The notes: a model not told the origin generated them from the sequence alone. A stretch of DNA of 22,246 bases from a virus (IMGVR_UViG_3300030389_001065:1-22246); one strand, 5' to 3'; numbered from the stretch's first letter, positions 3,071 to 22,131 are shown. Translations and numbers: made by a program.

Positions 3071-4528
3071 TCAATCTTCTTCTTCTTCTTTCAAAGGTTC
3101 GACAATTATTTTCCCATTTTCATCTGTCAAGTTACTTTTTTTCATGTGAGAATCTTGTCTTTCACCAATAACCAACCAAGAAATAGTATCAGTGCAGGTA
3201 TTATCTTCTACTGTTATGGTTAAAATGTTTTTTGAAACTGAACCTTTAACTGCTGTCCACCCTGTTTCATTAGATGTAAAGCACTGAATATCTCTATTTA
3301 ATAAAATGAATGTACCTTCGCTCATTCCTGAAACTTTATCAATATTCACAGTTGCTGTTCCACTCACTAAATCCACTTTCCCTCTATAAATATTATCTGC
3401 TTGAGGCCCTTCTACAAATGAATGAACTAAATTATGGGTATCTGTTTTTTCTGGTAAGGGATGATCAATTTTAAATGAACCAGAGCCTTTAGATAAAGAA
3501 CCAGTAATAGTAACATTTCCAGCCGTACTTATTTGCATAGTTGTCAAAAGTGTGGACGAATCTACTCTTTCTGCAAATTTCATTCCACCATCTGTTTCTA
3601 TACCAGCCCAAGAATATTTTTTAAAAACAGTTTCATTATTTGATGTGACCATCAACCCATCGTTATATGCAGAAGTAGTATTATTAGCACCTTTTATTCT
3701 AAATCTTGAATCTGATATTGAAGTAGTACCCAAGCCTAAATTTCCTGAACTATCAAGTCTAAGACGCTCCGAACCTGAAGTAGCAAATCTTATATGACTA
3801 GCTTCCCTATTAAATATACCTAACTCTAAATTATTATTTAAGAATATATCTGCTCCATCTGATCCACTAGAACCTGATGTAGAATTTCTTAAAGCTATGT
3901 CTACAAAATTAGACGAACTTTCTACATGTAAAGAAGAATTAGGCGATGAAGATCCAATACCCACTTTTCCTGTATAATCTATCACCATCCTGTCTGCTAA
4001 AGTTCCACTTATTTCAGTTTGAAATCTTAAATCACCATTAGTATCTGAATTTCTCGTAGCTCTTATAGCACTTTCAGCTCCACCTTCAGAAATTATTATT
4101 TTAGGAGCTGATCCAGCATCACCATGAACATGAAGTTTATCACTAGGACTTGTTGTGCCTATACCTAAGCCTGTCGAGTTTATTCTTAATCTTTCTACAC
4201 CACCAGTTGCCACATTAAAAGTATCAGCAGCACTTGAAAATACTCCTGTATTTAAATCATCTCTAAAAGCTAGTGCTGGAGTGCTAGCAGACCCATCTTC
4301 AAGAGTTAATGTGCCATCAAGTTGTAAAAGTTCAATCCATGCGTTATTAGCTGAATTTCTTATTTTAAGAACACCATTTGTAGTATCTGCCCACCATTGA
4401 TATGCGTAAGTTGTAGCTGGACTTGAGGAGTTTGAGTTATTACTAACGATTGCGGCAAGAGCATTATTTAGGTCTGTACGAAATGCCGCCCCTGATGCGT
4501 TGGCTATAACATAATCGTGTGTTGCCAT
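3071..4528 (-). CDS. Tail fibre protein with GIG-type repeats
   Basis: The 485-residue protein has a short N-terminal region ending with 'WWADTTNGVLKIRNSANNAW' (about 45-64), as in many phage fibres that report a sample-like beta segment, then three repeats of the pattern R-x-x-I/L-x-x-x-G-x-x-G-I/L-G-x-x-S-P at about 113-134, 180-202 and 253-278 ('LGIGTTSPSDKLHV', 'VGIGSSSPNSSLHV', 'LGLGTTSISDSRFRI'). A distinct C-terminal domain follows (about 350-460, from 'GSFKIDHPLPEKTD' to 'SWLVIGERQDSHM'), then a tail ending in five acidic residues. That C-terminal domain is one I recall as recurrent in marine phage fibres. AAGGA lies 9 bases before the ATG. The protein lies directly after the J-like tip protein, so it probably attaches there and helps bind the host surface. 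Confidence 0.85.
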   Translation of the reverse strand: MATHDYVIANASGAAFRTDLNNALAAIVSNNSNSSSPATTYAYQWWADTTNGVLKIRNSANNAWIELLQLDGTLTLEDGSASTPALAFRDDLNTGVFSSAADTFNVATGGVERLRINSTGLGIGTTSPSDKLHVHGDAGSAPKIIISEGGAESAIRATRNSDTNGDLRFQTEISGTLADRMVIDYTGKVGIGSSSPNSSLHVESSSNFVDIALRNSTSGSSGSDGADIFLNNNLELGIFNREASHIRFATSGSERLRLDSSGNLGLGTTSISDSRFRIKGANNTTSAYNDGLMVTSNNETVFKKYSWAGIETDGGMKFAERVDSSTLLTTMQISTAGNVTITGSLSKGSGSFKIDHPLPEKTDTHNLVHSFVEGPQADNIYRGKVDLVSGTATVNIDKVSGMSEGTFILLNRDIQCFTSNETGWTAVKGSVSKNILTITVEDNTCTDTISWLVIGERQDSHMKKSNLTDENGKIIVEPLKEEEED

Positions 4529-4584: not shown

Positions 4585-7500
4585 TTACTGACCTTTACCA
4601 AACCCTATTGCTGTGTACCTAAAGTTAAGATTTTTGAAGTTGTTGCTTGCATCTCTTACCTCTATAACAAATTGAGATCCTGTAATAGATGTAATTTTAA
4701 AATAATCTCCTGATACAGCACCTTCAAGCGTAATTCCTATAGTTGGCAAAAATGCTGTTGTCGAGGTACTTAGTGTATTAGTTCCTGTGAAAAACGGTGA
4801 ACCAAAAGTAACTGTTTTAGCAGAAGTTCCAGAAGCTATGTTAGTGTTTACTGTTTCTGTTCTACGTTTTACGCTTGCTTCAAAGCCAAGTTCGGTAACA
4901 TTGATATTTTGTGCTGGATCATTTGATTCAAGTTCGGATTTAAATTTAAATCCTCTAGCAGTATATTCACCATTTGCAAAAGTATTAAATTGAGTAAAGT
5001 TTGCACCATAAGTACATGAAGTTCCACTTGATATTGTTGCACTGGCACTAGCTGTAACTGTAAAAGAGTTGTCATTAGGAACTGTTTGTATTTCATAATT
5101 ACCATCTGCCGCAGATCCAGCAGTAAAATCTATGACAACAAAATCTCCTACAGAATATCCATGATCAGTTTTTGTAATAGTAATTGTAGTTCCACTCTGT
5201 TCATAGGTGGCTGAAACTGAAGTTGCAGGGTCTATATCTGTTGTTGCAACTAGAAGCTTTGCATTGACATCTTCTGCTAAATCTCCGTCAAATTCGGTCC
5301 AAGTATCAATATTTGCAGTTCTTGAATCAATCAAATCGTTTGGTAATATTCCAGAAGTTACAAATCTTCTTTTTAAAGTAAGATTAAAAATTCCTTCTAG
5401 ATCAACTTTATTTTGAAACTCATAACTTCCGCTTGAATTTATAGGGCCAGCAAAATCTATATTAGATAAATCATCAATATTTTGAGTAACATCATCAATT
5501 GTTAATGTTCCATCTAACAACAATCCATCAAAATCTGCATCATAAAATGTATTTACTTTTTCGCCTTGGAATGGTGGTGAGTCTGTATCTTCTCTTTCTG
5601 TAAGGATTACTTGATTAGGTTGAGGGTCTGGTTGAGTTACAATTATTTTTGCAGCATTATTTGACCTGCGACCACCATCATCAATAAATTTAATCAAATA
5701 TGTCCCTGTCAATGCTGGAACAAGTGTTTCTGTAATATTTCCAGCAAGTTTTGGAATAATTTCAGTTGCATTAGAGAATGTAGCAGTAGCTCCTGTGTTT
5801 GGAGTATGCCTAACTGAAACTGATCCTCCATGCAAAACGTCAACAGAAGAAGAAGGGTTAAAACGTAGTCTTACAAATTCATCCGAGATTGGTTCTATTG
5901 TTAATCCAGATGGATCATCTGGTAAAGCAGTTTTTCCAACGGTGGTAAAAGTAGTTGTTGCAGGTTGTATGCTTGGTTTTCCTAATGCGTTAAAACTAAA
6001 AACTCGCACTTCATAAGTTCCAGCTTTTGTTTCAAAAATTGTAAAATCTGGTCTTGTTACTCGTTCACTGATCAAGTTTTCATTTTTAAATCTAAATTGA
6101 ACCATGTATTCTGTAACACCTTGCACTGGTTCCCATTGAACAAAAAGCTTTGATACAGCACGATTATTAATAACAACAATTTGTTCAGTACCTTGCAAGT
6201 TGCTTGGTGCAGGTTTTAATTGAGTTAAAGTTGTTATTGTTCTTGTTGTTAAAGTAGAACCATCTTCAACAGAATCATATTTTGAAGAATTAAATGCCAC
6301 AGCGGTAACTTGATATGCCAAACCATCTACTTCTGTAACTCCAATAACCCTAAAAGTTTGTAATTGAACTGTTGTATTTTCTATAACCCAGACCGAGTTT
6401 GCCTGTGGAATAGAGCTAAATGCAGAAGAAACTGTAATAGTTGTTCCAGAGATAGAACTTATTGATCTTGTTTCTAATGTTCCATCTCTCAAAATTACAG
6501 ATAATGTCGCTGAATCTGTTGTTGCTAAATCTGTATTATTTTCATCATCAACTTTTACTTGTGTTGAAGATGATCCTGTTGTAATTCTTCCACCTCTTCT
6601 AACCCCAGCCCTCAATGGATCTGCAATTTGTATTACTTGTGAAGGTCTAACAAGAACCCCAGCTTCAAGTGTAGTAGTAAAATTAACAACCTCTCCTTCA
6701 TTGTTTTGAGTATATAAAAACCATTTTCCTAATCTTGACGCTTGACCTCTTGAAGTTACTGCAATGGCTTTTAAATTTTTTATAACAACCCCATATTTTG
6801 CTTGCAATGCAGTATCTTCTACAGTTTCATATTCAATTGTCCTTGTCTCCATATCAAAATAAGCAACATTTATGACTGTATGTTTTGTTCTTAATGAACT
6901 ATTTGAATAAGTAAAACCAGCTTCAGTTACATTTGATAAATTAAATAAATAAGACGCATCTGTTGGTCTATCTTGCCCAAGAGCAACTGTACCCGCAGAG
7001 TAAAAAGGCATAGCTCTCATACAACTACAAAGCTCATTTATCAAGTTATAAGCTTGTTTTTGATTTTGAATGACTACATTACATGAAAAACGCGGCTCAG
7101 TATTGCCTGTTCCTGTCATGTCATCAACTAATTCTGATGCGTAAACAGATGCACTATAAAAGCTAAAAACATCAATATTAGATGTGTCTATTTGATCTCC
7201 AAAACCTTTTGAAGTTGTTAAAAGGTCATATAAAACCCAAGCTGGGTCATTTGAATATTCTTTATCACTTTTAAATGTTCCATTAAACGTGCCGCTATAG
7301 CTTATAGAACCATCTGACCTTACAGTCCCATTGTGAGGTATCTTAATTTTTGTTCCTCTTACGCGGAAAGACCGTCTAGGCGTTGAAGAAAAGGTTTTAG
7401 CATCAAACCTTAGAGCAACATGAGCAGAATTGGCAAAAGTCGATTGTGCATTTATTATTTCTGTGTAATTTGTAAAAGTAAACTGATTTCTTAAAGTTGT

Positions 7501-8154
7501 GTTTGGGTTGTTATTAGTGTCTGATGTAACTCTATTGACTCTTACTGTTACAGGAAAGCTTGTTCCGCTTGGCAAATTTACTTTATAATCTCTAAAATAT
7601 GCACTTGCAGTCCTTCCTTTCACAGTGTCAGTAATAACTGTCTGTGTTGTTCCATCATTTTCTATGGTTTGAATATTTAAAGTAACTTCTGCCCCATCAA
7701 TATCACCATCAGCTAAAAATTCTTGTAATTCATTAAAGGCAATAGTGACCCTTACTGCATTGACAGAAGTATTGGTAATACTGACAGAAACAGGTGAACT
7801 TGTTGTAACTATTTGATTTACTGAAAATTCTGTTTCTTGTTCTGTTATTGCTTGTATGGCTGTTTGATCAGATGTTCCAAATCTTGGTTCAAATGATACA
7901 TTTTGAAAGTTAAAATCTTCATCTGAAGGACTTGTTCCAGCCGCTTGTTGTAAAACTTGAGTTCCATTTAAAAATACGTCTTTAAGTGCTGAAGTATTAT
8001 ATTCAGTTGAACCTTTTGAACCTGTCGCAGAAGGAAAACCTTCAATTTCTCCTTCACCAAGTAATTCCACTAATGTTTGAAACTGTTTTGATGCAAGTAC
8101 ATTACTTGGAATATTTGGATCTGTAAGATCAGATGGAATACCTACTAAAGTCAT
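4585..8154 (-). CDS. J: Tail tip / host specificity protein, lambda J-like
   Basis: The 1189-residue protein starts with 'LVELLGEGEIEGF' (about 28-40), a hallmark of the J/central tail-hub family. A tail-hub region lies at about 420-520 ('SRGQASRLGKWFLYTQ' and 'VRPSQVIQIADP'), followed by two fibronectin type III-like domains at about 645-840. Residues 981-1046 form a beta-rich repeat domain also found in the M-like protein of this genome. The last 80 residues end 'FRYTAIGFGKGQ', a beta sandwich-like end that may contact the receptor, possibly related to H-type lectin tips (low certainty). The gene overlaps I by four bases (ATGA). J assembles as the trimeric tail tip and reads the host receptor. 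Family certainty is high; receptor is unknown. Confidence 0.9.
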   Translation of the reverse strand: MTLVGIPSDLTDPNIPSNVLASKQFQTLVELLGEGEIEGFPSATGSKGSTEYNTSALKDVFLNGTQVLQQAAGTSPSDEDFNFQNVSFEPRFGTSDQTAIQAITEQETEFSVNQIVTTSSPVSVSITNTSVNAVRVTIAFNELQEFLADGDIDGAEVTLNIQTIENDGTTQTVITDTVKGRTASAYFRDYKVNLPSGTSFPVTVRVNRVTSDTNNNPNTTLRNQFTFTNYTEIINAQSTFANSAHVALRFDAKTFSSTPRRSFRVRGTKIKIPHNGTVRSDGSISYSGTFNGTFKSDKEYSNDPAWVLYDLLTTSKGFGDQIDTSNIDVFSFYSASVYASELVDDMTGTGNTEPRFSCNVVIQNQKQAYNLINELCSCMRAMPFYSAGTVALGQDRPTDASYLFNLSNVTEAGFTYSNSSLRTKHTVINVAYFDMETRTIEYETVEDTALQAKYGVVIKNLKAIAVTSRGQASRLGKWFLYTQNNEGEVVNFTTTLEAGVLVRPSQVIQIADPLRAGVRRGGRITTGSSSTQVKVDDENNTDLATTDSATLSVILRDGTLETRSISSISGTTITVSSAFSSIPQANSVWVIENTTVQLQTFRVIGVTEVDGLAYQVTAVAFNSSKYDSVEDGSTLTTRTITTLTQLKPAPSNLQGTEQIVVINNRAVSKLFVQWEPVQGVTEYMVQFRFKNENLISERVTRPDFTIFETKAGTYEVRVFSFNALGKPSIQPATTTFTTVGKTALPDDPSGLTIEPISDEFVRLRFNPSSSVDVLHGGSVSVRHTPNTGATATFSNATEIIPKLAGNITETLVPALTGTYLIKFIDDGGRRSNNAAKIIVTQPDPQPNQVILTEREDTDSPPFQGEKVNTFYDADFDGLLLDGTLTIDDVTQNIDDLSNIDFAGPINSSGSYEFQNKVDLEGIFNLTLKRRFVTSGILPNDLIDSRTANIDTWTEFDGDLAEDVNAKLLVATTDIDPATSVSATYEQSGTTITITKTDHGYSVGDFVVIDFTAGSAADGNYEIQTVPNDNSFTVTASASATISSGTSCTYGANFTQFNTFANGEYTARGFKFKSELESNDPAQNINVTELGFEASVKRRTETVNTNIASGTSAKTVTFGSPFFTGTNTLSTSTTAFLPTIGITLEGAVSGDYFKITSITGSQFVIEVRDASNNFKNLNFRYTAIGFGKGQ

Positions 8155-8927
8155 TCAGCAGTTCCCTCTATTTGAACAGTATCAATACCAGCACTAACAA
8201 CAACAGATCCTGTAAAAACTTCTCCGTAAATTATAGGAACAGCAACACCTGCTCTTGAAATATTTGTTATTGCAGAAAAACCAAAAGAATTTTGTGCTCT
8301 TTGATCTGGTAATACAACATCATTTTGTGGTATTGGATCAGCACCAGTTGATTCAACTATTGGTGGAGGAGTGATTTCTGGTGTGGGTGCAATCAAAGGA
8401 GTTACACCATCGGACACAATATCAGAAGTAACAGCAGAAGAAACACTTCCTAAAACACCTGTAGTTCCAGATTCCGCTGCAATAGCACTTGCACCAGCAA
8501 CAAGAGCAGCAGCCCCAACAGCCGAATTAGCAACAGTAGCAACAGTTCCAATAGCAGCCCCAGCAACGGTATTTGCTACACCTAAAGCAGTACCAGCAAC
8601 AGCAGTTACAGCAGTGGCAGCAGTAGAGACAACAGCGGCACCTGCGCTGACTATACCTGATATTACTGGCACAATAAAACCAGAACCAGTTGCAACAGGG
8701 ATAATTTGAATATCTCCTTTACCTCTGATTGATAAAAAATCTAAAGATACATCAAAATTATTCATTTTAATTTTGTAATATTGTTCACACATATGTTTTT
8801 CTACCTCTGGATAATTACAAATCAAAAATCTTACTGCCTCTGCTGGACTTGATACAGCAGCTTCAAAATATGATGATCCTAAAAATTTCCTTAATCTGCC
8901 ATAAACTTTAATTTTTTTAAGCTGCAT
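8151..8927 (-). CDS. I: Tail assembly protein, lambda I-like
   Basis: The 258-residue protein begins with a beta-grasp (ubiquitin-like) region, 'IKVYGRLRKFLG' to 'GDIQIIPVATGSG' (residues 6-83), as in the lambda I family. A long Ala/Gly/Val-rich hydrophobic stretch follows at about 84-150 and a Pro/Asp-rich linker at 174-208. The conserved C-terminal segment 'FGFSAITNISRAGVAVPIIYGE' at 215-236 closes the protein and is what usually leads to the J interaction. It overlaps K by 11 bases and J by 4. Gene I products are needed for tail-tip assembly but are scarce or absent in the mature lambda virion. The hydrophobic stretch may make this protein membrane-active or be packed in the tail hub. Confidence 0.85.
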   Translation of the reverse strand: MQLKKIKVYGRLRKFLGSSYFEAAVSSPAEAVRFLICNYPEVEKHMCEQYYKIKMNNFDVSLDFLSIRGKGDIQIIPVATGSGFIVPVISGIVSAGAAVVSTAATAVTAVAGTALGVANTVAGAAIGTVATVANSAVGAAALVAGASAIAAESGTTGVLGSVSSAVTSDIVSDGVTPLIAPTPEITPPPIVESTGADPIPQNDVVLPDQRAQNSFGFSAITNISRAGVAVPIIYGEVFTGSVVVSAGIDTVQIEGTAE

Positions 8928-9624
8928 ATCTATAAACCTTTTTTGTGGCTTGTTGATAGTTTAAATCAAATTGTTCTCTACAACTCAATTTACCTAGTGA
9001 ATGATGCAAAATTGTTTGATCTCCTATATATAAAGCAGCATGGCCTAAAACATCTTTGACAGATTCCATTAGTAAAACATCACCAATTTGTATATCTTCT
9101 TTATTATCTAATTCTATGAAACCTAGTTCAGGTAAAGTTTTAACAAATAATGGATTTTTTATAAATTGTTTTAGTGTTTTAGGTCTTTTTGTGTAATTTA
9201 TTTTTATATTTTTATTTTCTTCAAACCAATCTGTTATAAGTGACCAGCAATCATGTACTCCCCAAATAAAACTTCTACCAATCAATGATGGTGCTTTCCA
9301 TCCTGACGGTTCAAACATAATCCAATCTTTCGTTAATACGCTATAAATGTGCCATGGTAAACCTAAATACTCGCAACTAGCTTTATCGTTATCAGAGGGG
9401 ATTGCAGGGTCATAAGGATGTGAATGTACAACGCCAATAATCTCTCCTGTGTCTTCACATTCAGCCCAATCATCAGGATCAATTACAAAAAATTCAAAAC
9501 TACTTTCTGCAATATTTTTACAAGGCCAGTAAGTTTTTTCTCCTTTAATAATTGCCAGCAATCCGCATGATTCTTTTGGCATAGATTCTTCAGCGTGTTT
9601 TGCAGCTTGATCTTTCCAAGTCAT
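8917..9624 (-). CDS. K: Tail tip peptidase, lambda K-like (JAB/MPN plus NlpC/P60)
   Basis: The 235-residue protein has two hydrolase domains. The N-terminal MPN/JAB domain (about 5-105) has Glu18, 'VHSHP' with His67 and His69, then Ser77 and Asp80, so the JAMM zinc-binding set looks complete. The C-terminal NlpC/P60 domain (about 115-235) has catalytic Cys126 in 'GVHDCWSL' and His195 in 'LGHAALYIGD'. In lambda this protein is required for tail-tip assembly, and the NlpC/P60 domain may cut host peptidoglycan at genome entry. It overlaps L by 4 bases (ATGA) and I by 11. Both active sites look intact. Confidence 0.92.
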   Translation of the reverse strand: MTWKDQAAKHAEESMPKESCGLLAIIKGEKTYWPCKNIAESSFEFFVIDPDDWAECEDTGEIIGVVHSHPYDPAIPSDNDKASCEYLGLPWHIYSVLTKDWIMFEPSGWKAPSLIGRSFIWGVHDCWSLITDWFEENKNIKINYTKRPKTLKQFIKNPLFVKTLPELGFIELDNKEDIQIGDVLLMESVKDVLGHAALYIGDQTILHHSLGKLSCREQFDLNYQQATKKVYRYAA

Positions 9625-10199
9625 GCGTTTATAAAACTACCTACAGCTGGAAAATCTTTTTTTGTTACTTGACGTTTTGGCGCACGAACCGATTGAAGAT
9701 CAAGAGCAGAAGTTAGTTCAAATTGTACAATATTTCTATTTTCAAGGGTTTTTCTGTTGACAAAATATATTTCTTGAGGCAATTCTGCTGTACTGTCAGG
9801 TGTGCCATAAGGATTTTTATTAGATGGAAAATTTTCAGCATCTAAAAATTGTGCAAGTGTTCTAATTCTCACTACTTTTGCACCTTGTAAGTCATTAAAA
9901 GGAGTTGTCGCGTTTACAGATGCCATAAGACTTGTAATATTACCTAAAATATTTGACACTGTAAAAACAGGTCTTGGCAGCCTTCCACGACCAGAATATT
10001 CAAAACCAGTTGCAGTTAAAGGAAATTTATCATAAGTGTTACCCTGCCAAATTATTGAAGCATTACTATTTAATCCAACACCAGAATGAAATCTTGAAAC
10101 AGTAGTTGCTCCATGTAAAGCAGAATCTAAAGTTAAAGTGAAAAGCTCAATAATTGACTTATTTGTTAATGCTTGAAGTTCTGCTGTTGGTATAGTCAT
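9621..10199 (-). CDS. L: Minor tail protein, lambda L-like, lacking the Fe-S cysteines
   Basis: The 192-residue protein matches the L family in its N-terminal and middle parts ('IIELFTLTLDSALHG', 'ATGFEYSGRGRLPRP', 'IVQFELTSALDLQSV'). It lies between M-like and K-like genes, as in lambda. It contains no cysteine. Lambda gpL (232 residues) carries four C-terminal cysteines that hold an iron-sulfur cluster; here 'PKRQVTKKDFPAVGSFINA' goes straight from the end of the main domain to a short tail, so that segment seems to be missing. The start overlaps the stop of the M-like gene as TAATG and its stop overlaps the K start as ATGA, so this short end is built into the gene order and is not a frameshift artefact visible here. 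Confidence 0.88.
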   Translation of the reverse strand: MTIPTAELQALTNKSIIELFTLTLDSALHGATTVSRFHSGVGLNSNASIIWQGNTYDKFPLTATGFEYSGRGRLPRPVFTVSNILGNITSLMASVNATTPFNDLQGAKVVRIRTLAQFLDAENFPSNKNPYGTPDSTAELPQEIYFVNRKTLENRNIVQFELTSALDLQSVRAPKRQVTKKDFPAVGSFINA

Positions 10200-10765
10200 T
10201 ATGGTTCAAACACCTCCCTAAAAGTGCAGCTTAAAATTGCTCTATTGTTATATGGTATTGTTTTTGACCATGCCTGACAAACATATTTACCAGCACCAGA
10301 TAAAGTTACTGAAACATTACCACTATTAGTTGCGCTGTCTGATGCAGTAACTGTAAAAGTATTTTGGTCAACTGCCGTTGATATTGCAAAAGTGCCATCA
10401 GAAGCAGAGCCAGAAGTATAATCAATTGTAACAACATCACCGATGGCAAGACCATGATTTGAAATCGTAATTGTTGAAGTTGTGCCTGATTGTGAATAAG
10501 TACCTGTTTTTGTAAAGCCTTCTGCTGGTGGAGTAAAATCAAAGCTTGCCTGATCGTTTACACGACTTCTTAAAAACGCCTCTATGACATCTGATTCCTC
10601 TTCTGTGACGTTAAAAACTAAATCATATATTTTAGGGTCTTGAGTCAATGGAAGGCCAAATAAAGCTCTAAATTCATACCCATCGCCCAAAGCAGTTGTT
10701 CTTATTTTTGGAACACTTGCTTTTTTTGTTCCATATACAGGATTGATTGAAGGAAAAGTTGCCAT
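10199..10765 (-). CDS. M: Minor tail protein, lambda M-like, with an inserted beta domain
   Basis: The 188-residue protein has an M-family core split in two: residues 1-80 ('ALGDGYEFRALFG', 'FLRSRVNDQASFDFTPP') and 160-188 ('YVCQAWSKTIPYNNRAIL' to 'REVFEP'). Between them, at about 84-157, sits a domain with 'SGTTSTITISNHGLAIGDVV' and 'FTVTASDSAT' that matches residues 981-1046 of the J-like protein of the same phage. M-type proteins help link the tape measure/tip to the tail tube. The gene starts two bases after the tape measure stop. The order TMP-M-L-K-I-J is that of lambda, although I see no H-like second tape-measure gene. Confidence 0.85.
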   Translation of the reverse strand: MATFPSINPVYGTKKASVPKIRTTALGDGYEFRALFGLPLTQDPKIYDLVFNVTEEESDVIEAFLRSRVNDQASFDFTPPAEGFTKTGTYSQSGTTSTITISNHGLAIGDVVTIDYTSGSASDGTFAISTAVDQNTFTVTASDSATNSGNVSVTLSGAGKYVCQAWSKTIPYNNRAILSCTFREVFEP

Positions 10766-10766
10766 G

Positions 10767-12842
10767 TTACCTTGTTAAAATACCGCCAGCTTGTTTTTCT
10801 TTTACTAGTTGAGCTTGAACAACAACACCTATTACTTGCCCTAAAGCATTAAGGTCAACATTGTTACCAGAAGCAGTTGCTGCACCACCTTCTACATTAA
10901 CTGTAACGTAATTATTTGTAATACCACCACCAAGCTGATTATTTGGAATAATTGTTCCAGCAGTGCGAGGAACAAACAGTTCAGGCCCTTTTTCTCCTAC
11001 AACTGAAATTTTATTAACAGGTGGCCTACCACCATCTGCAAAAAGACCACCTAATAAACCACCAACAATAGTTCCAACTGGGTTAATAAGTGACCCAGCA
11101 ACAGAACCTATAACACCTCCAATACCTCCTGCTCCTCCTGTGCCAGTTGCTCCAGCTGTAAAATTATCTCCAAAACTTCCAAGAAGATTATCAAGTTGTG
11201 CATCAATTATCTTATCTCTAATTCTATTAAGTATATTTGTCATTGCCTCACCAAAAGATTGTGCGCCTGTTATTGCATCTCTCAAATTATCTTTAATACT
11301 TGTTTGTATGGCGGCACCAATCTCATCAAATTTATTTTTTAACTCATCCGCCTCAGTTTTTTGTTTTCTAAGTTCATTTGTGCCTTCAATATAAGCTGTA
11401 ATAACATCCCTCAAACCTTCACCATGAATTGCAACAAGAGCATTTATTTCTTGTTGTGTTTTGACTTGTTCCAAATTTCCATCAAGAGCAGCTTTTGCTA
11501 AAGTCCTTTCGCGGACTAATTCTGGAATTTTATCTTTTAATAGTTGATTTATTTCTTGTTGTGTCAGTTTACTATAATCTAATTCTTCGTTTGTTTTATC
11601 AATTTGATTTGTACTTTCTATCTCATCATGCAATTTATCTCTTACTACTTTGTATTGACCATGCAATAAATTGAGTTGTTTTGTGAGAGAATTTATAGCT
11701 CTTTTATTGTTGTTTTCTTCTGCTTTTGCTAATCTCCTCAAAATTTGGAACCTTTCAGCATCAATTTTCAACATCTCTGCGCGAAGAGCTTCTTGGCCTC
11801 CTTCTTTTACTAATTTATTGAATTTTTTTTGTTCATTATTTTGTTTTATAAAAGCTGTCGTAACTGCTCCTATTGCTGTTGCTATAGCCACAAAAGGCAA
11901 TGCGTTTAAAGCTATAGCTAAAACACCTGCTGCACCACCTGCTGCAATAAAAGCAGCAGAAACTAAACCAACTGCTACAGCAGTACCTTTAGCTGCAACC
12001 GCAATGGCTGTAAATATTAAGGCAGTTTTTCCTATTGGAGAATTTACAAAGTTAGTTGCAGCAACAGTTAATTCAGTTAATCCCCTAACAACAGGCAAAA
12101 CAACTGGTAACAAAGCATCACCAAAAGCCCTTGATAAATTTTCAGCTTCATTACTTAAATTCTTAAATACTTGTGTTGGATCGTTTTCTAAAATTGCTTT
12201 TAAATCTTTACCACCTTCGTCTGCTAGTTTGCTTAATGCTCTAATAACGACTTCACTTGTTAAATTTCCTTCGGCAGCAAGTTTTTTTAATTCACCAGTA
12301 CTAACACCTAATTCTTCTGATAAAGGTTTTAGAACAAGAGGGATCTGTTCTGATACGCTTCTAAATTCGTCCCCTGCTAATTTTCCAGAACCTAAAGCCT
12401 GTGCAAGTTGCCTAAAGGCATTGGAAGCTTCCTGTGAAGTTGCACCACCTAATTTTGCTGCGGTATTAAAACCTATGAAAGTGGTTCTAATATCTTCCAA
12501 GCTTGTTCCTAATGGTTTCAATCTTGCTGTAATATTTGTCACGCCATCTAAAGCTTCAGTGGCACTTAAACCAAATAATTTCTGACCATCAGTTGCAATT
12601 TTTTGTGCTGCTGCAAAATCTCCTGTAGCTTTAGTTAATAAGCCTAAACGAATATTTAACTTTTTAAAATTAGTTGAAGTTTGTATTGCATTTTTTGCTA
12701 ATAATGTAAGACCTATACCACCAAGAGCAGTTCTAAGACCACCAAAAGCAGACTGTAATTTATTAGTTTGAGTCTGAACACCACTTAAAACTCTAGTCGC
12801 ATTGGTGGCATCTACAGTAAGTTTTACATTTGCCTGTGCCAC
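10767..12842 (-). CDS. Tape measure protein
   Basis: The 691-residue protein shows the usual tape measure layout: an N-terminal region ('LNIRLGLLTKATGDFAAAQ', 'FRQLAQALGSGKLAGDEFRS' at about 141-161) typical of the TMP N-terminal domain, a hydrophobic block at about 272-332 that may cross the membrane at genome entry, a long helical middle (335-550), a Gly-rich segment (565-600) and the C-terminal 'FADGGRPPVNKISVVGEKGPE' region seen in many tape measures. The start is GTG, 25 bases after the stop of the chaperone fusion. If the usual 1.5 Angstrom per residue rule holds, the tail is near 100 nm, suggesting a siphovirus. AAAGG lies about 13 bases upstream of GTG. Confidence 0.92.
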   Translation of the reverse strand: MAQANVKLTVDATNATRVLSGVQTQTNKLQSAFGGLRTALGGIGLTLLAKNAIQTSTNFKKLNIRLGLLTKATGDFAAAQKIATDGQKLFGLSATEALDGVTNITARLKPLGTSLEDIRTTFIGFNTAAKLGGATSQEASNAFRQLAQALGSGKLAGDEFRSVSEQIPLVLKPLSEELGVSTGELKKLAAEGNLTSEVVIRALSKLADEGGKDLKAILENDPTQVFKNLSNEAENLSRAFGDALLPVVLPVVRGLTELTVAATNFVNSPIGKTALIFTAIAVAAKGTAVAVGLVSAAFIAAGGAAGVLAIALNALPFVAIATAIGAVTTAFIKQNNEQKKFNKLVKEGGQEALRAEMLKIDAERFQILRRLAKAEENNNKRAINSLTKQLNLLHGQYKVVRDKLHDEIESTNQIDKTNEELDYSKLTQQEINQLLKDKIPELVRERTLAKAALDGNLEQVKTQQEINALVAIHGEGLRDVITAYIEGTNELRKQKTEADELKNKFDEIGAAIQTSIKDNLRDAITGAQSFGEAMTNILNRIRDKIIDAQLDNLLGSFGDNFTAGATGTGGAGGIGGVIGSVAGSLINPVGTIVGGLLGGLFADGGRPPVNKISVVGEKGPELFVPRTAGTIIPNNQLGGGITNNYVTVNVEGGAATASGNNVDLNALGQVIGVVVQAQLVKEKQAGGILTR

Positions 12843-16430: not shown

Positions 16431-17468
16431 TTAATCCTGATTAGATACGTTAGTAGCTCTAACAATACCGATATTCTTTGTCTCATACACTTTCGACCAT
16501 GATGCAACTGTTTCCAAAACTGTTCTGTTTGGGTTAACTGTTGATACAGCGTATTTTAGACCTACTGGGTGATAGATGTAGTGGAGATCCACTGCCATAG
16601 CTTCTTCCAAAGCTAAAATATCACGATCAGTTTGTGTTCTGATTGGTGCTTGCTCACCTGTAACAACTGCTCCTTCTGTAAAGAAGAATGTTGAATACTC
16701 AGTAGAAGCTCCAGAGCCTGTTGTTGGAATATCATCAGAAACGATAATTCTTAAACCACCAAAGCTCTCGACAACATTAGGGCCATCAAAAGCTCTTGTT
16801 GTACTACCAGCAGTAGCTCCTGTATCAGGTGCGCCTGTGTTGTCGTAGATGCGGTCAATCATATTACGCTCTAACAAGTCTCCATAAACGTTGGAGTGCA
16901 TTGCTATTGCTGTAAGCTTGCTACCTTGATCACCTAGTAAAGACTTTGCCTTTGCAATGTGTCTTGGACTTAGAGTTGTTGGGCTATCACCAGACTCTGA
17001 ATCAATAGTCAAAGCAAATAAAGCTGAGTTGCTATCGTTTGCGTTGATAGATCCAAATGCACCAGTTAAGCAAGAATATAAATCCTTTTGCTTTTGGTTA
17101 TTTACATAAGCAGCCATTTTCTGAGCAATAGCAGCCATAGGATCAATACCACCACCAACTGCAAGTGAAGCTAAGTCTCTTGAACTAAAAGCTCTACCTC
17201 TATGAAGAACAGCAGCAATTTGGTTATCTGCTGTAATTTTTGATGGAGTTAAAGATGTTGAGTCTGTTAAAACTTCAAAATCACCTGTTAAGTTTGCTTT
17301 GTAGAAAGGAATCTTTACAAAGTCACCGCCTCTTTCTGCGGATAAATTTAATTCTGCCAAAGGTTGCACTACCCCACTCTGTAAGAAGCTGTCAGTTTGT
17401 GTTGTCGCTTCGATCAAGTAGGGAGTAAACACCTCAGGAATAATTAAATCCGATCTTAATGTTGCCAT
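16431..17468 (-). CDS. Major capsid protein (HK97 fold, Gp13-like type)
   Basis: The 345-residue protein starts 'MATLRSDLIIPEVFTPYL', followed by an elongated region ('RGGDFVKIPFYKANLTGD'), 'GRAFSSRDLASLAVGG', 'AMHSNVYGDLLERNMIDRI' and near its end 'VDLHYIYHPVGLKYAVS'. This is the pattern of the phage major capsid family often found with a separate scaffold and no maturation protease. No protease gene is seen in this window between portal and capsid, and the N-terminus has no long delta domain. No Shine-Dalgarno sequence is seen upstream of its ATG, odd for a protein needed in hundreds of copies; the 68-base leader has repeats and hairpins that could matter. Confidence 0.92.
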   Translation of the reverse strand: MATLRSDLIIPEVFTPYLIEATTQTDSFLQSGVVQPLAELNLSAERGGDFVKIPFYKANLTGDFEVLTDSTSLTPSKITADNQIAAVLHRGRAFSSRDLASLAVGGGIDPMAAIAQKMAAYVNNQKQKDLYSCLTGAFGSINANDSNSALFALTIDSESGDSPTTLSPRHIAKAKSLLGDQGSKLTAIAMHSNVYGDLLERNMIDRIYDNTGAPDTGATAGSTTRAFDGPNVVESFGGLRIIVSDDIPTTGSGASTEYSTFFFTEGAVVTGEQAPIRTQTDRDILALEEAMAVDLHYIYHPVGLKYAVSTVNPNRTVLETVASWSKVYETKNIGIVRATNVSNQD

Positions 17469-19461: not shown

Positions 19462-20706
19462 TTATGTATATAACTCTTGTAACCTTTTTAATGAAACTTC
19501 GCTACCATCATTTCTAATCATTTTTCGTAACGCTGCCTGTCCAGACCCCTCTTTTTTTGCCAATCTTTTAAATATTTTTACTTTTCCTTCACTACCTAAA
19601 GTTTTAACTTGCAACTTTCTATCTTGATCAAGTAACCAGTTTCCGTATGTTGTACCTTGCGGAACTCTGCCTGTAATACTTGGTCTTTTATCAAATTTAG
19701 TCGCTGGCGGCTTTTCAAGACTTGAAAACTCTTCTTGCAATCTGTCAAAGTCAACAATAGGGACAGTAGTTGATCGACAATTAAAATGTTGAGGTGGTGT
19801 AGGCCCTTTGTTATATTCAAATATTTGACCATCTAATCTTCGACATATCGGACTTGTTCTTGAGTCTAGCGTTGCAACATATTTGTATTGAGGAGCAACT
19901 TTTTTATTTGCTGCATATACGGCCTGTGATGCCTGATTTGTAACTTGATTAACAGAAGTCCTGACAATAGTTGAGATTTGATTATTAGCTACTTTTGTAA
20001 GTTCTCCGCCAGCTAAAGCTAATTGTTTAACCGAAAGAGGGGCTAAATCTGCAAAATCAAGCCTACCAACAAGTCTCCTAGTGATCTGATCTAATGACTC
20101 ACCAGCAAACACTCCTGATCTAACAGCTAAATCTAATTTTTCTGCTGAAGATTCTGCTAAACCTCTAAATGCTTTACTTACTGTTGTGCCATTTGGCAAT
20201 CTTATTGCAGCCCCTTGAGTAGCTGTAAGACTGAATTTACCAGAACCAAAGTTTACAAAATTATCTTCTGTAAAAGCTTTACTTGTAAAAATATTTACTT
20301 TTGATGGGTCAGTAATTATCACTGACTCTGCATACTTAGGACTTATAGAAACACTGTTGATAGGTACATCACCAGATGCAGTAACCTTTTTCAATTCGTT
20401 TTCAATAAAATCTTTTTGTAATATCGTTACTCCTTGAAGTTCTTTTTTAAAATCTCTAGCTGATTTAGTTGACCAAGTTGCAAGACTATCCTTTGACTGT
20501 TTGATAACTGCTCTAAGTCTTTTTCTTGTTTGAGGTGCAATAATTACACCTTCACCAGCCGCTTGCTGTCTTAGATTTATTTGTCTCAGTTGTCTTGCTG
20601 CATTTAAAATTATTTCGTTATAAGTTACAGCATATTTTTTTGCAACAGAATTACTATATCTATTTAAATCAATAGTTTCCCTAAAAAATACCTCTGGAAT
20701 ATCCAT
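19462..20706 (-). CDS. Head morphogenesis protein (SPP1 gp7 / Mu F-like)
   Basis: The 414-residue protein has a long helical N-terminal half and the family signature near its end: 'YVATLDSRTSPICRRLDGQ' (about 276-294) and 'PPQHFNCRSTTVPI' (304-317), with Cys288, His307 and Cys310. The preceding helix 'RTSVNQVTNQASQAVYA' is also typical. Such proteins are minor head components that bind portal or DNA and help set up ejection. It starts three bases after the portal stop, as in SPP1-like orders. Family assignment is firm, detailed role unknown. Confidence 0.9.
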   Translation of the reverse strand: MDIPEVFFRETIDLNRYSNSVAKKYAVTYNEIILNAARQLRQINLRQQAAGEGVIIAPQTRKRLRAVIKQSKDSLATWSTKSARDFKKELQGVTILQKDFIENELKKVTASGDVPINSVSISPKYAESVIITDPSKVNIFTSKAFTEDNFVNFGSGKFSLTATQGAAIRLPNGTTVSKAFRGLAESSAEKLDLAVRSGVFAGESLDQITRRLVGRLDFADLAPLSVKQLALAGGELTKVANNQISTIVRTSVNQVTNQASQAVYAANKKVAPQYKYVATLDSRTSPICRRLDGQIFEYNKGPTPPQHFNCRSTTVPIVDFDRLQEEFSSLEKPPATKFDKRPSITGRVPQGTTYGNWLLDQDRKLQVKTLGSEGKVKIFKRLAKKEGSGQAALRKMIRNDGSEVSLKRLQELYT

Positions 20707-20709
20707 TTA

Positions 20710-22131
20710 TCATTCTTCCTCTTGTTCCTCCTCTAGTTCTGGGTCAGGTTCTTCTGGTGGCTCTATTTCTGTAAGACCTCCTTGCTGTGTGCTTTCTATC
20801 TCTTCTTCAATATCAAAATCGTCTGGCAAAACTTCTCCTGTAGATAATTGTTTCAACAATGTTTCTTGTGTAATAGTGCCAGCAGTGAACAATGTAAGTA
20901 AAGCTGTTATTTCTTGTGGCTGTAATCTTGCACTTACAAAGTCTCTATTGACAAAACTACTGCCAGCATTAGGTTCATTGAGATATTCACTATGAAACCT
21001 TAAACAATTATCAATCAAATCTTGCATCTGCTGTGCAATTACCATCATTGTGCTGTCATTCTGTGATCTATCAATCCTCTTGGCCTCTGCTGTTTCTCCT
21101 ACTAACTTCTGTCCAAGGACTGCGGCTAGTGACAATGTATTGATCTGCTCTGCAATATCTTTCAATCTTGTAAACTGACTATCATAACTATCACCTGACG
21201 GCGATATATATTCCATACGTGACTCAGGTGGGAGTGATATTGCTTCATTAGGGCCTGTTGTTATCTCATCTGCATTTGGATAACCAAAAACTGCAAGCAT
21301 AGGAACAGAACTAATATGCAAAATATTATCCAAGTCAGACTGTATCTGATAATGCTTGAGATTTAATTCTGCAATGTCATACAAAGGGCTACGACTCTCA
21401 AAGTATCCAACTCTATTTGAATAAGCAATTGCAAAAGGAATTTTATCTTTAATACTCATTTCACCTTGTTCAAATAATTTATATTCACTCTTTTTTGCAT
21501 CTTTTCTATGAATCTCATATCTGCCACGTTCAAGAACTCTGATTTGTTTGACAATCTTGTCACCATATTTACCATCTGGTTCAACAATCTGTTCTAACAA
21601 GCGTACTTGTGTGAGTTGCCTTACCCCATCTATGATTTCCGTTCTAAAACCTAAAATATCTTTTGGTGTATATGTCACCCAGTATGGCCTTGCTTTGTCT
21701 CCCTCTTTTGGTGCATCAACAAGAACCCCAACATGACCAAAGCTAATAGCTTGTCTTGCTGTCTGATATAGCCACACGTTCAAATCGTTACCCTCTAAAT
21801 CGACATCAAACAACTGTTCTCTTACTAAGTCAGATACATCATCAAGTCTTACTGGTTTTCTTACCAACATACCTGATAGCATTTTCTCGATTCGTTGCAG
21901 ATAGGGAACTACTGTCGACCTGCTGAGTCTGACATCATAGCTATCGTCCGTCTCTCGACTTTCTTGCGGCAAATACTTTCTATGCTCACTCCGGATCTTG
22001 TATGTTCCTTCCTTCAAATCTGTTATCAAATCCCAGAATTGGCTCATTCTCTGATAAGCAGCATTAGGGCTTGCAACTGTAGTGGCAGCTTGTGTTATGG
22101 GCTGATTGTAAATATTTAGTGAGCTATACAC
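20710..22131 (-). CDS. Portal protein (DUF4055-type)
   Basis: The 473-residue protein starts at GTG with TGAGG about eight bases upstream; a later ATG at residue 29 is a weaker alternative. Residues 64-120 ('YDVRLSRSTVVPYLQRIEKM' onward) and 'LNLKHYQIQSDLDNILHIS' (about 258-276) match the portal-like DUF4055 family common in siphoviruses, and 'GETAEAKRIDRSQNDSTMM' is the usual late motif. The C-terminus is a very acidic tail ('EPPEEPDPELEEEQEEE'). It forms the dodecameric ring for DNA entry. Terminase end upstream and gp7-like gene downstream confirm the order. Confidence 0.9.
   Translation of the reverse strand: MYSSLNIYNQPITQAATTVASPNAAYQRMSQFWDLITDLKEGTYKIRSEHRKYLPQESRETDDSYDVRLSRSTVVPYLQRIEKMLSGMLVRKPVRLDDVSDLVREQLFDVDLEGNDLNVWLYQTARQAISFGHVGVLVDAPKEGDKARPYWVTYTPKDILGFRTEIIDGVRQLTQVRLLEQIVEPDGKYGDKIVKQIRVLERGRYEIHRKDAKKSEYKLFEQGEMSIKDKIPFAIAYSNRVGYFESRSPLYDIAELNLKHYQIQSDLDNILHISSVPMLAVFGYPNADEITTGPNEAISLPPESRMEYISPSGDSYDSQFTRLKDIAEQINTLSLAAVLGQKLVGETAEAKRIDRSQNDSTMMVIAQQMQDLIDNCLRFHSEYLNEPNAGSSFVNRDFVSARLQPQEITALLTLFTAGTITQETLLKQLSTGEVLPDDFDIEEEIESTQQGGLTEIEPPEEPDPELEEEQEEE

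Follow-up and report, generated by a model that had tools for sequence, protein, structure and literature searches.

A small barrel shared by two tail-tip proteins

The marine virus record IMGVR_UViG_3300030389_001065, whose full 22,246 bases are referred to here as the window, carries a lambda-type tail module on the minus strand, and two proteins of this module contain one and the same small domain. The first copy occupies residues 87-155 (10301..10507, minus strand) of M, a tail-tip protein of the distal tail (Dit-like) type with 188 amino acids (10199..10765, minus strand). The second, supported by BLASTP, hhalign and a comparison of flanks, occupies residues 981-1049 (5008..5214, minus strand) of J, the central tail fibre or host-specificity protein of 1189 amino acids (4585..8154, minus strand). 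The two units align without gaps and are identical at 38 of 68 positions (BLASTP, E 2e-18); the first 60 columns hold 35 identities, where an initial annotation of this DNA had read about 36 by eye and had placed both stretches correctly. The alignment score of 192 compares with a mean of 38 (standard deviation 6.5) and a maximum of 73 among 2000 shuffles. The annotation had said that its claim would fall if the match vanished in profile comparison, and there it persisted: hhalign joined the alignments of M copies and J copies over 67 columns with a probability of 99.6 (E 1.5e-24). In M the unit lies between 'FDFTPP' and 'YVCQAW', an interruption of the core that had also been noticed at the outset; in J it interrupts the C-terminal domain cleanly, with '...LLVATT' before it and 'F.TFANG.Y' after it.

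We show that these ~69 residues make up a small, self-contained beta barrel, a homologue of the barrel domain in phage endosialidases. Modelled by itself in AlphaFold2 with 30 aligned copies, the unit reached a predicted local distance difference test score (pLDDT) of 92.1, and all eight of its Foldseek matches in the PDB at E<=0.001 were endosialidases (TM by query 0.71-0.79). The insert sequence matched the endosialidase of phage phi92 (4hiz) with an E-value of 3.7e-7 (phmmer, PDB). The M copy scores 35.2 bits against PF12195 (End_beta_barrel, the phage endosialidase beta barrel), for which the gathering cut-off is 35; the J copy scores below this value (24 bits in whole J, 30.8 bits as a domain alone) and is therefore assigned to the family through its homology with M. 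Among 30 diverse barrel copies, 20 match PF12195 at E<=0.01. When compared with predicted viral proteins, the unit model matched J proteins and tail spikes, together with a tail sheath protein and numerous unnamed proteins of phages.

The remainder of M possesses the ring core of distal tail proteins, as judged by PF05939 (Phage_min_tail, above cut-off over residues 11-84) and by likeness to lambda gpM in both sequence (8iyk, phmmer against the PDB, E 2.9e-7) and fold (Foldseek match to 8iyk_E with a TM of 0.83 by target length, from a whole-M model with a pLDDT of 86.9). The best Foldseek match of whole M by E-value is a chain of 204 residues from the baseplate of the T5-like phage DT57C (8hqz_H), aligned over its full length; its length and fold suggest that this chain is probably a T5-type distal tail protein with an extra barrel. 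J is identified by PHROG 31 (E 1.7e-179) and by the FNIII-A_GpJ and Phage-tail_3 domains, FNIII-A covering residues 106-236 (7447..7839, minus strand).

The tail genes follow the order tape measure (10767..12842; PF20155, E 4.9e-37), M, L (9621..10199, 192 amino acids; PF05100), a K-like protein with JAB plus NlpC/P60 domains (8917..9624), I (8151..8927, 258 amino acids; PHROG 32) and J, all on the minus strand; L and I have no insert in the window. The I protein contains a middle stretch rich in Ala, Val and Thr that is lacking in the I proteins of three related loci (L195, L204 and L243). Downstream of J, a fibre-like protein of 485 amino acids (3071-4528) carries repeated 'GLGIGTTSPSDKLHV'-type motifs and matches PHROG 29834, of unknown function, at its N-terminus. 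Head genes lie upstream of the tail module (19462-22131 and 16431-17468) and encode a DUF4055 protein in the portal position, a Mu F-like protein and a Gp13-like major capsid protein.

Insertion into older cores and movement among tip genes

We show that the unit was inserted into cores that predate the insertion, in both M and J. Of 397 M genes in the loci fetched, 235 carry the unit and 162 lack it, counts that do not represent population frequencies as the loci were sampled by query. The unit is present in M of the Prochlorococcus siphoviruses MED4-117 and MED4-184/P-HS2 (54% identity over the whole length) and absent from M of marine virus AG-345-A17 and Synechococcus phage S-H1. The closest pair of M proteins differing in the unit (L236 with, L125 without) has 87% core identity, and the flanks of the J insert are colinear in relatives whose C-terminal domain has no barrel. 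The initial annotation had allowed that the domain might belong to the ancestral M fold in all relatives, which these domain-less orthologues contradict. A free tree of the M core needs two changes, and a single clade for the unit is not rejected (AU p 0.76), so that the tree is compatible with a single gain. Among 168 loci with near-full J, copies are present in both M and J in 90, in neither in 52 and in M only in 26, while none has a J copy without an M copy. An obligate coupling of the two copies, which a first table of 62 loci had seemed to indicate by its all-or-none pattern, was discarded when wider sampling gave the M-only loci.

The barrel is also mobile. A group of siphoviruses related to marine cyanophages has acquired it repeatedly in M, L, I and J, within loops or at the ends of these proteins. 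We counted seven insertion sites: one each in M, L and I, and four positions in J. In L, 24 related loci bear the barrel near residue 30, while in I it forms a C-terminal extension in L195, L204 and L243. The window J has an empty site at residues ~294-298 ('FNGTFKS/DKEYS'; 7263..7275, minus strand), where two related loci (L043 and L045) possess a third, M-like barrel as a clean insert between 'FNGTFK' and 'KEYSNDP'. This third copy shares 87-88% of its residues with M-type copies, against ~54-56% with the C-terminal copy of the same J gene; judged by these identities, it derives from an M-type copy. The J of L321 has an insert ~20 residues upstream of this site, nearest to C-terminal J copies, and that of L190 has a divergent copy inside FNIII-A, near window J residue 192. 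Several copies may occur together, with four supported and one tentative in L190 and likewise several in L195. Thus the suggestion that the domain is exchangeable is strongly supported, both by domain-less M and J orthologues and by the extra copies in J, L, I and unrelated virion proteins.

A hidden Markov model built from M copies only recovers the copies in L (40-81 bits), I (25-39 bits), J, the capsid (57 bits) and the tail tube, with the weakest C-terminal J copies down to 12 bits, and the full barrel model found no match among 15,654 reversed and shuffled open reading frames (ORFs). Eight apparent copies near J residue 110 were found by an iterated profile only and are left out of the count because the M-only profile does not recover them. 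Inserts near window J residue 110 in six loci (L175, L180, L190, L193, L196 and L197; J residues ~142-226) show 'HGYSVGEVIHW'-like motifs, have their likeness to the barrel in an iterated profile only, and could be far relatives of the barrel or products of chance profile drift. Two loci (L026 and L223) have tandem copies at the C-terminus of J (residues ~1000-1120), the second very divergent, which would represent an eighth site.

The initial annotation had attributed the two window copies to duplication within the genome. A recent event of this kind inside the window genome, to which the presence of two related copies ~5 kb apart might point, is very improbable and effectively refuted, given that the copies share 69% DNA identity (141/204) and are therefore old, that each type of copy groups with its counterparts in other phages (M with M, J with J), and that sharing a genome does not make two copies any more similar. 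By nearest neighbour, 171 of 171 M copies pair with M copies, 85 of 87 C-terminal J copies with J and 23 of 24 L copies with L; the M and J copies of the window are each nearest to orthologous copies in other phages. M-J identity is 47.7% within genomes and 47.8% between them, and there is thus no concerted evolution. Duplication stands as an explanation for the lineage, and in a changed form for L043 and L045 through their M-type third copy.

Copies beyond the tail tip

The barrel is not confined to tail tips. The major capsid proteins of the T7-like podoviruses P-SSP2 and P-SSP3 carry it, with 63% identity to the window J copy over 49 residues, and it was absent from the corresponding proteins of P-SSP7 and P-GSP1. 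It sits near the C-terminus of this protein (L166, which is P-SSP2, 1640-2953; L418, 1610-2944; and ~19 further loci), and a single head may display hundreds of barrels. The barrel also occurs in tail tube protein B of NATL1A-7 and in the myoviruses P-HM1, P-HM2 and MED4-213, where it is part of the giant fibre. When viral contigs were scanned for relatives of the capsid copy, ~20 capsid genes and 12 genes of nozzle type were added, along with a baseplate-wedge protein and others. In the podovirus nozzle protein (PF25675; L436, 1193-4582, and 11 related loci) the barrel sometimes occurs twice, and in the baseplate-wedge-like protein (L450, 1532-5185) it adjoins a laminin-G/concanavalin-like lectin domain. 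A family of small ORFs (L448, 1642-2208, and 20 related loci; the longest of 189 amino acids) has one copy each and no family match except for the barrel region of PHROG 32294; these ORFs possibly encode a free-standing decoration protein. A scan of bacterial genomes with the J-type copy, which reaches close relatives only, gave no confirmed match.

The domain family, the principle of evolved Dits and the promiscuity of some virion domains such as the immunoglobulin (Ig)-like ones are already known. We found no report in the open-access literature of an endosialidase-type barrel recurring across lambda-type M, L, I and J and across cyanophage capsid and nozzle proteins; the one paper there that names the PF12195 family deals with the classification of receptor-binding proteins.

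Putative function and comparison with known systems

The barrel of the K1F endosialidase contains one of three polysialic-acid binding sites, with loops that are a hotspot for discrimination between host strains (PMC12632334). Phages that infect Gram-positive bacteria have carbohydrate modules in their Dit loops, which attach to host cells with an affinity below that of the main receptor-binding protein (PMC7291167). The 936 phages place such modules in Dit, in the major tail protein and in the neck, and fusion to green fluorescent protein has demonstrated host binding by a tail module and by a neck module (PMC6669499). Because the K1F barrel binds polysialic acid and the Dit and 936 modules bind hosts, we lean, by a modest degree, towards auxiliary binding of the envelope, in which the barrels would be modules of the lambda-type tip that bind the host surface at low affinity and depend on avidity. 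As the lambda tail has M as a ring of six and J as a trimer (PMC10721106), nine barrels per virion would be expected, decorating the tip around and below its ring. They would probably grip glycans of the outer envelope at low affinity, keeping the virion attached to the cell as J searches for its target with its receptor-binding end, much as the carbohydrate-binding modules of evolved Dit proteins act. Exposure of the barrels in the assembled tip, binding of glycans and the role in avidity are predicted by analogy; surface location and carbohydrate binding, as first proposed for this domain, are plausible in view of its homology with the K1F barrel, although the two K1F contact serines are aspartates here.

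Several observations weigh against this interpretation. In K1F, Ser460 and Ser468 of the barrel are reported to accommodate sialic-acid carboxylates. These serines align with Asp115 and Asp123 of M, which are near-invariant among M copies, and hence binding of sialic acid in the K1F manner has probably not been conserved; the substitution speaks against sialic-acid binding and not against membership of PF12195. The ratio of non-synonymous to synonymous substitution rates (dN/dS) is 0.18 for the unit and 0.21 for the M core, with dS close to saturation, such that the unit is under purifying and not diversifying selection and, evolving no faster than the core, is unlike a diversifying host-range determinant. 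Many relatives lack the unit, which is therefore not essential to the tip. Finally, the small-barrel fold plays a structural part in F1-ATPase and ubiquitin E1. Of the possible ligands, one that is generic and conserved fits better than one specific to a strain.

The main rival explanation is that the barrels pack on neighbouring tip subunits or on each other, stabilizing the M ring and the J cone and binding nothing on the host. Selection at the level of the core, the structural roles of the fold in other proteins and the lack of J copies without an M copy would all be expected if this were so. However, M, L, I, several J loops, the capsid and the nozzle share no common interface, 26 loci have the barrel in M only and close relatives manage without it; we therefore regard structural reinforcement as rather unlikely, if still a serious competitor. 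Less probable again is a docking platform, with the M barrel as the attachment point for side fibres or some other accessory protein. In T5, the L-shaped fibres are anchored to the distal-tail ring through p132 (PMC7291167), the top match of whole M is the DT57C chain and a fibre-like protein is encoded next to J, but such a role leaves unexplained both the copies in J, L, I and capsid and the relatives whose M lacks the unit. Equally improbable is a stable, easily inserted fold that has spread through illegitimate recombination and that selection tolerates without favouring it. The many insertion sites and host proteins and the phage-only distribution, as far as the scan of bacterial genomes for close relatives extends, would suit such an origin, and near-neutral spread is one reading of Ig-like domain promiscuity; a dN/dS of 0.18 argues for selection instead, as does the long time over which the M, J and L sites have retained the unit by vertical descent.

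We see roughly even prospects that the barrel serves marine phage virions in general as a promiscuous decoration domain, comparable to the Ig-like domains. On this view it travels between virion genes as a unit, as the M-type copy set cleanly into J of L043 and L045 shows, and its presence in all four lambda-type tip proteins (M, L, I and J) and in capsid, nozzle and fibre proteins would provide phages of picocyanobacteria with a non-specific hold on the host surface that they share. How phages of the most abundant phototrophs of the ocean attach is poorly known. A well-folded module of 69 residues that recurs in tip, capsid and nozzle is easy to express, allowing a direct and cheap binding assay, and natural pairs with and without the unit, 87% identical elsewhere in the protein, are ready controls.

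Among known systems, the endosialidase barrel (PF12195; K1F endoNF 1v0e/3gvk, phi92 4hiz) shares with the window unit its sequence family, its fold and its place as a separate module in a virion attachment protein. The window unit differs in having no attached catalytic propeller, in sitting in structural tip proteins and in having aspartate in place of the serines that contact sialic acid. The Ig-like domains of phage virion proteins, likewise promiscuous (Fraser et al. 2006, as cited in PMC10721106), offer a parallel: a single small beta domain recurs across unrelated virion proteins and is presumed to bind surfaces weakly, although fold and family are different. The T5-type distal tail protein carries an oligonucleotide/oligosaccharide-binding (OB) fold that gpM lacks (PMC7291167); T5 pb9 is thus similarly a distal-tail ring protein with an extra small barrel, in a phage of a Gram-negative host, but its extra domain is described as an OB-fold extension whereas that of the window is an insert, a PF12195 barrel homologues of which occur in J, L and I.

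A further parallel is with the evolved Dits of Lactobacillus phage J-1, the lactococcal 936 phages and streptococcal phages, in which a loop of the ring protein of the distal tail accommodates an extra beta-rich module and, in 936 phages, related modules occur in the major tail protein and neck. Such modules are absent from plain Dits and, similarly, the M barrel is inserted at one site and missing from domain-less relatives. Any similarity to a known carbohydrate-binding fold would lie in the endosialidase barrel with the K1F polysialic-acid site (PMC12632334), the contact residues of which are not conserved. Evolved-Dit phages infect Gram-positive hosts and have mostly BppA-type modules in galectin-domain loops or Dit arms, whereas the window has an endosialidase-type barrel, with predicted carbohydrate binding, in a lambda gpM-type ring without a galectin domain. 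The comparison thereby extends the idea of evolved Dits from phages of Gram-positive dairy bacteria to the lambda-type tail tip.

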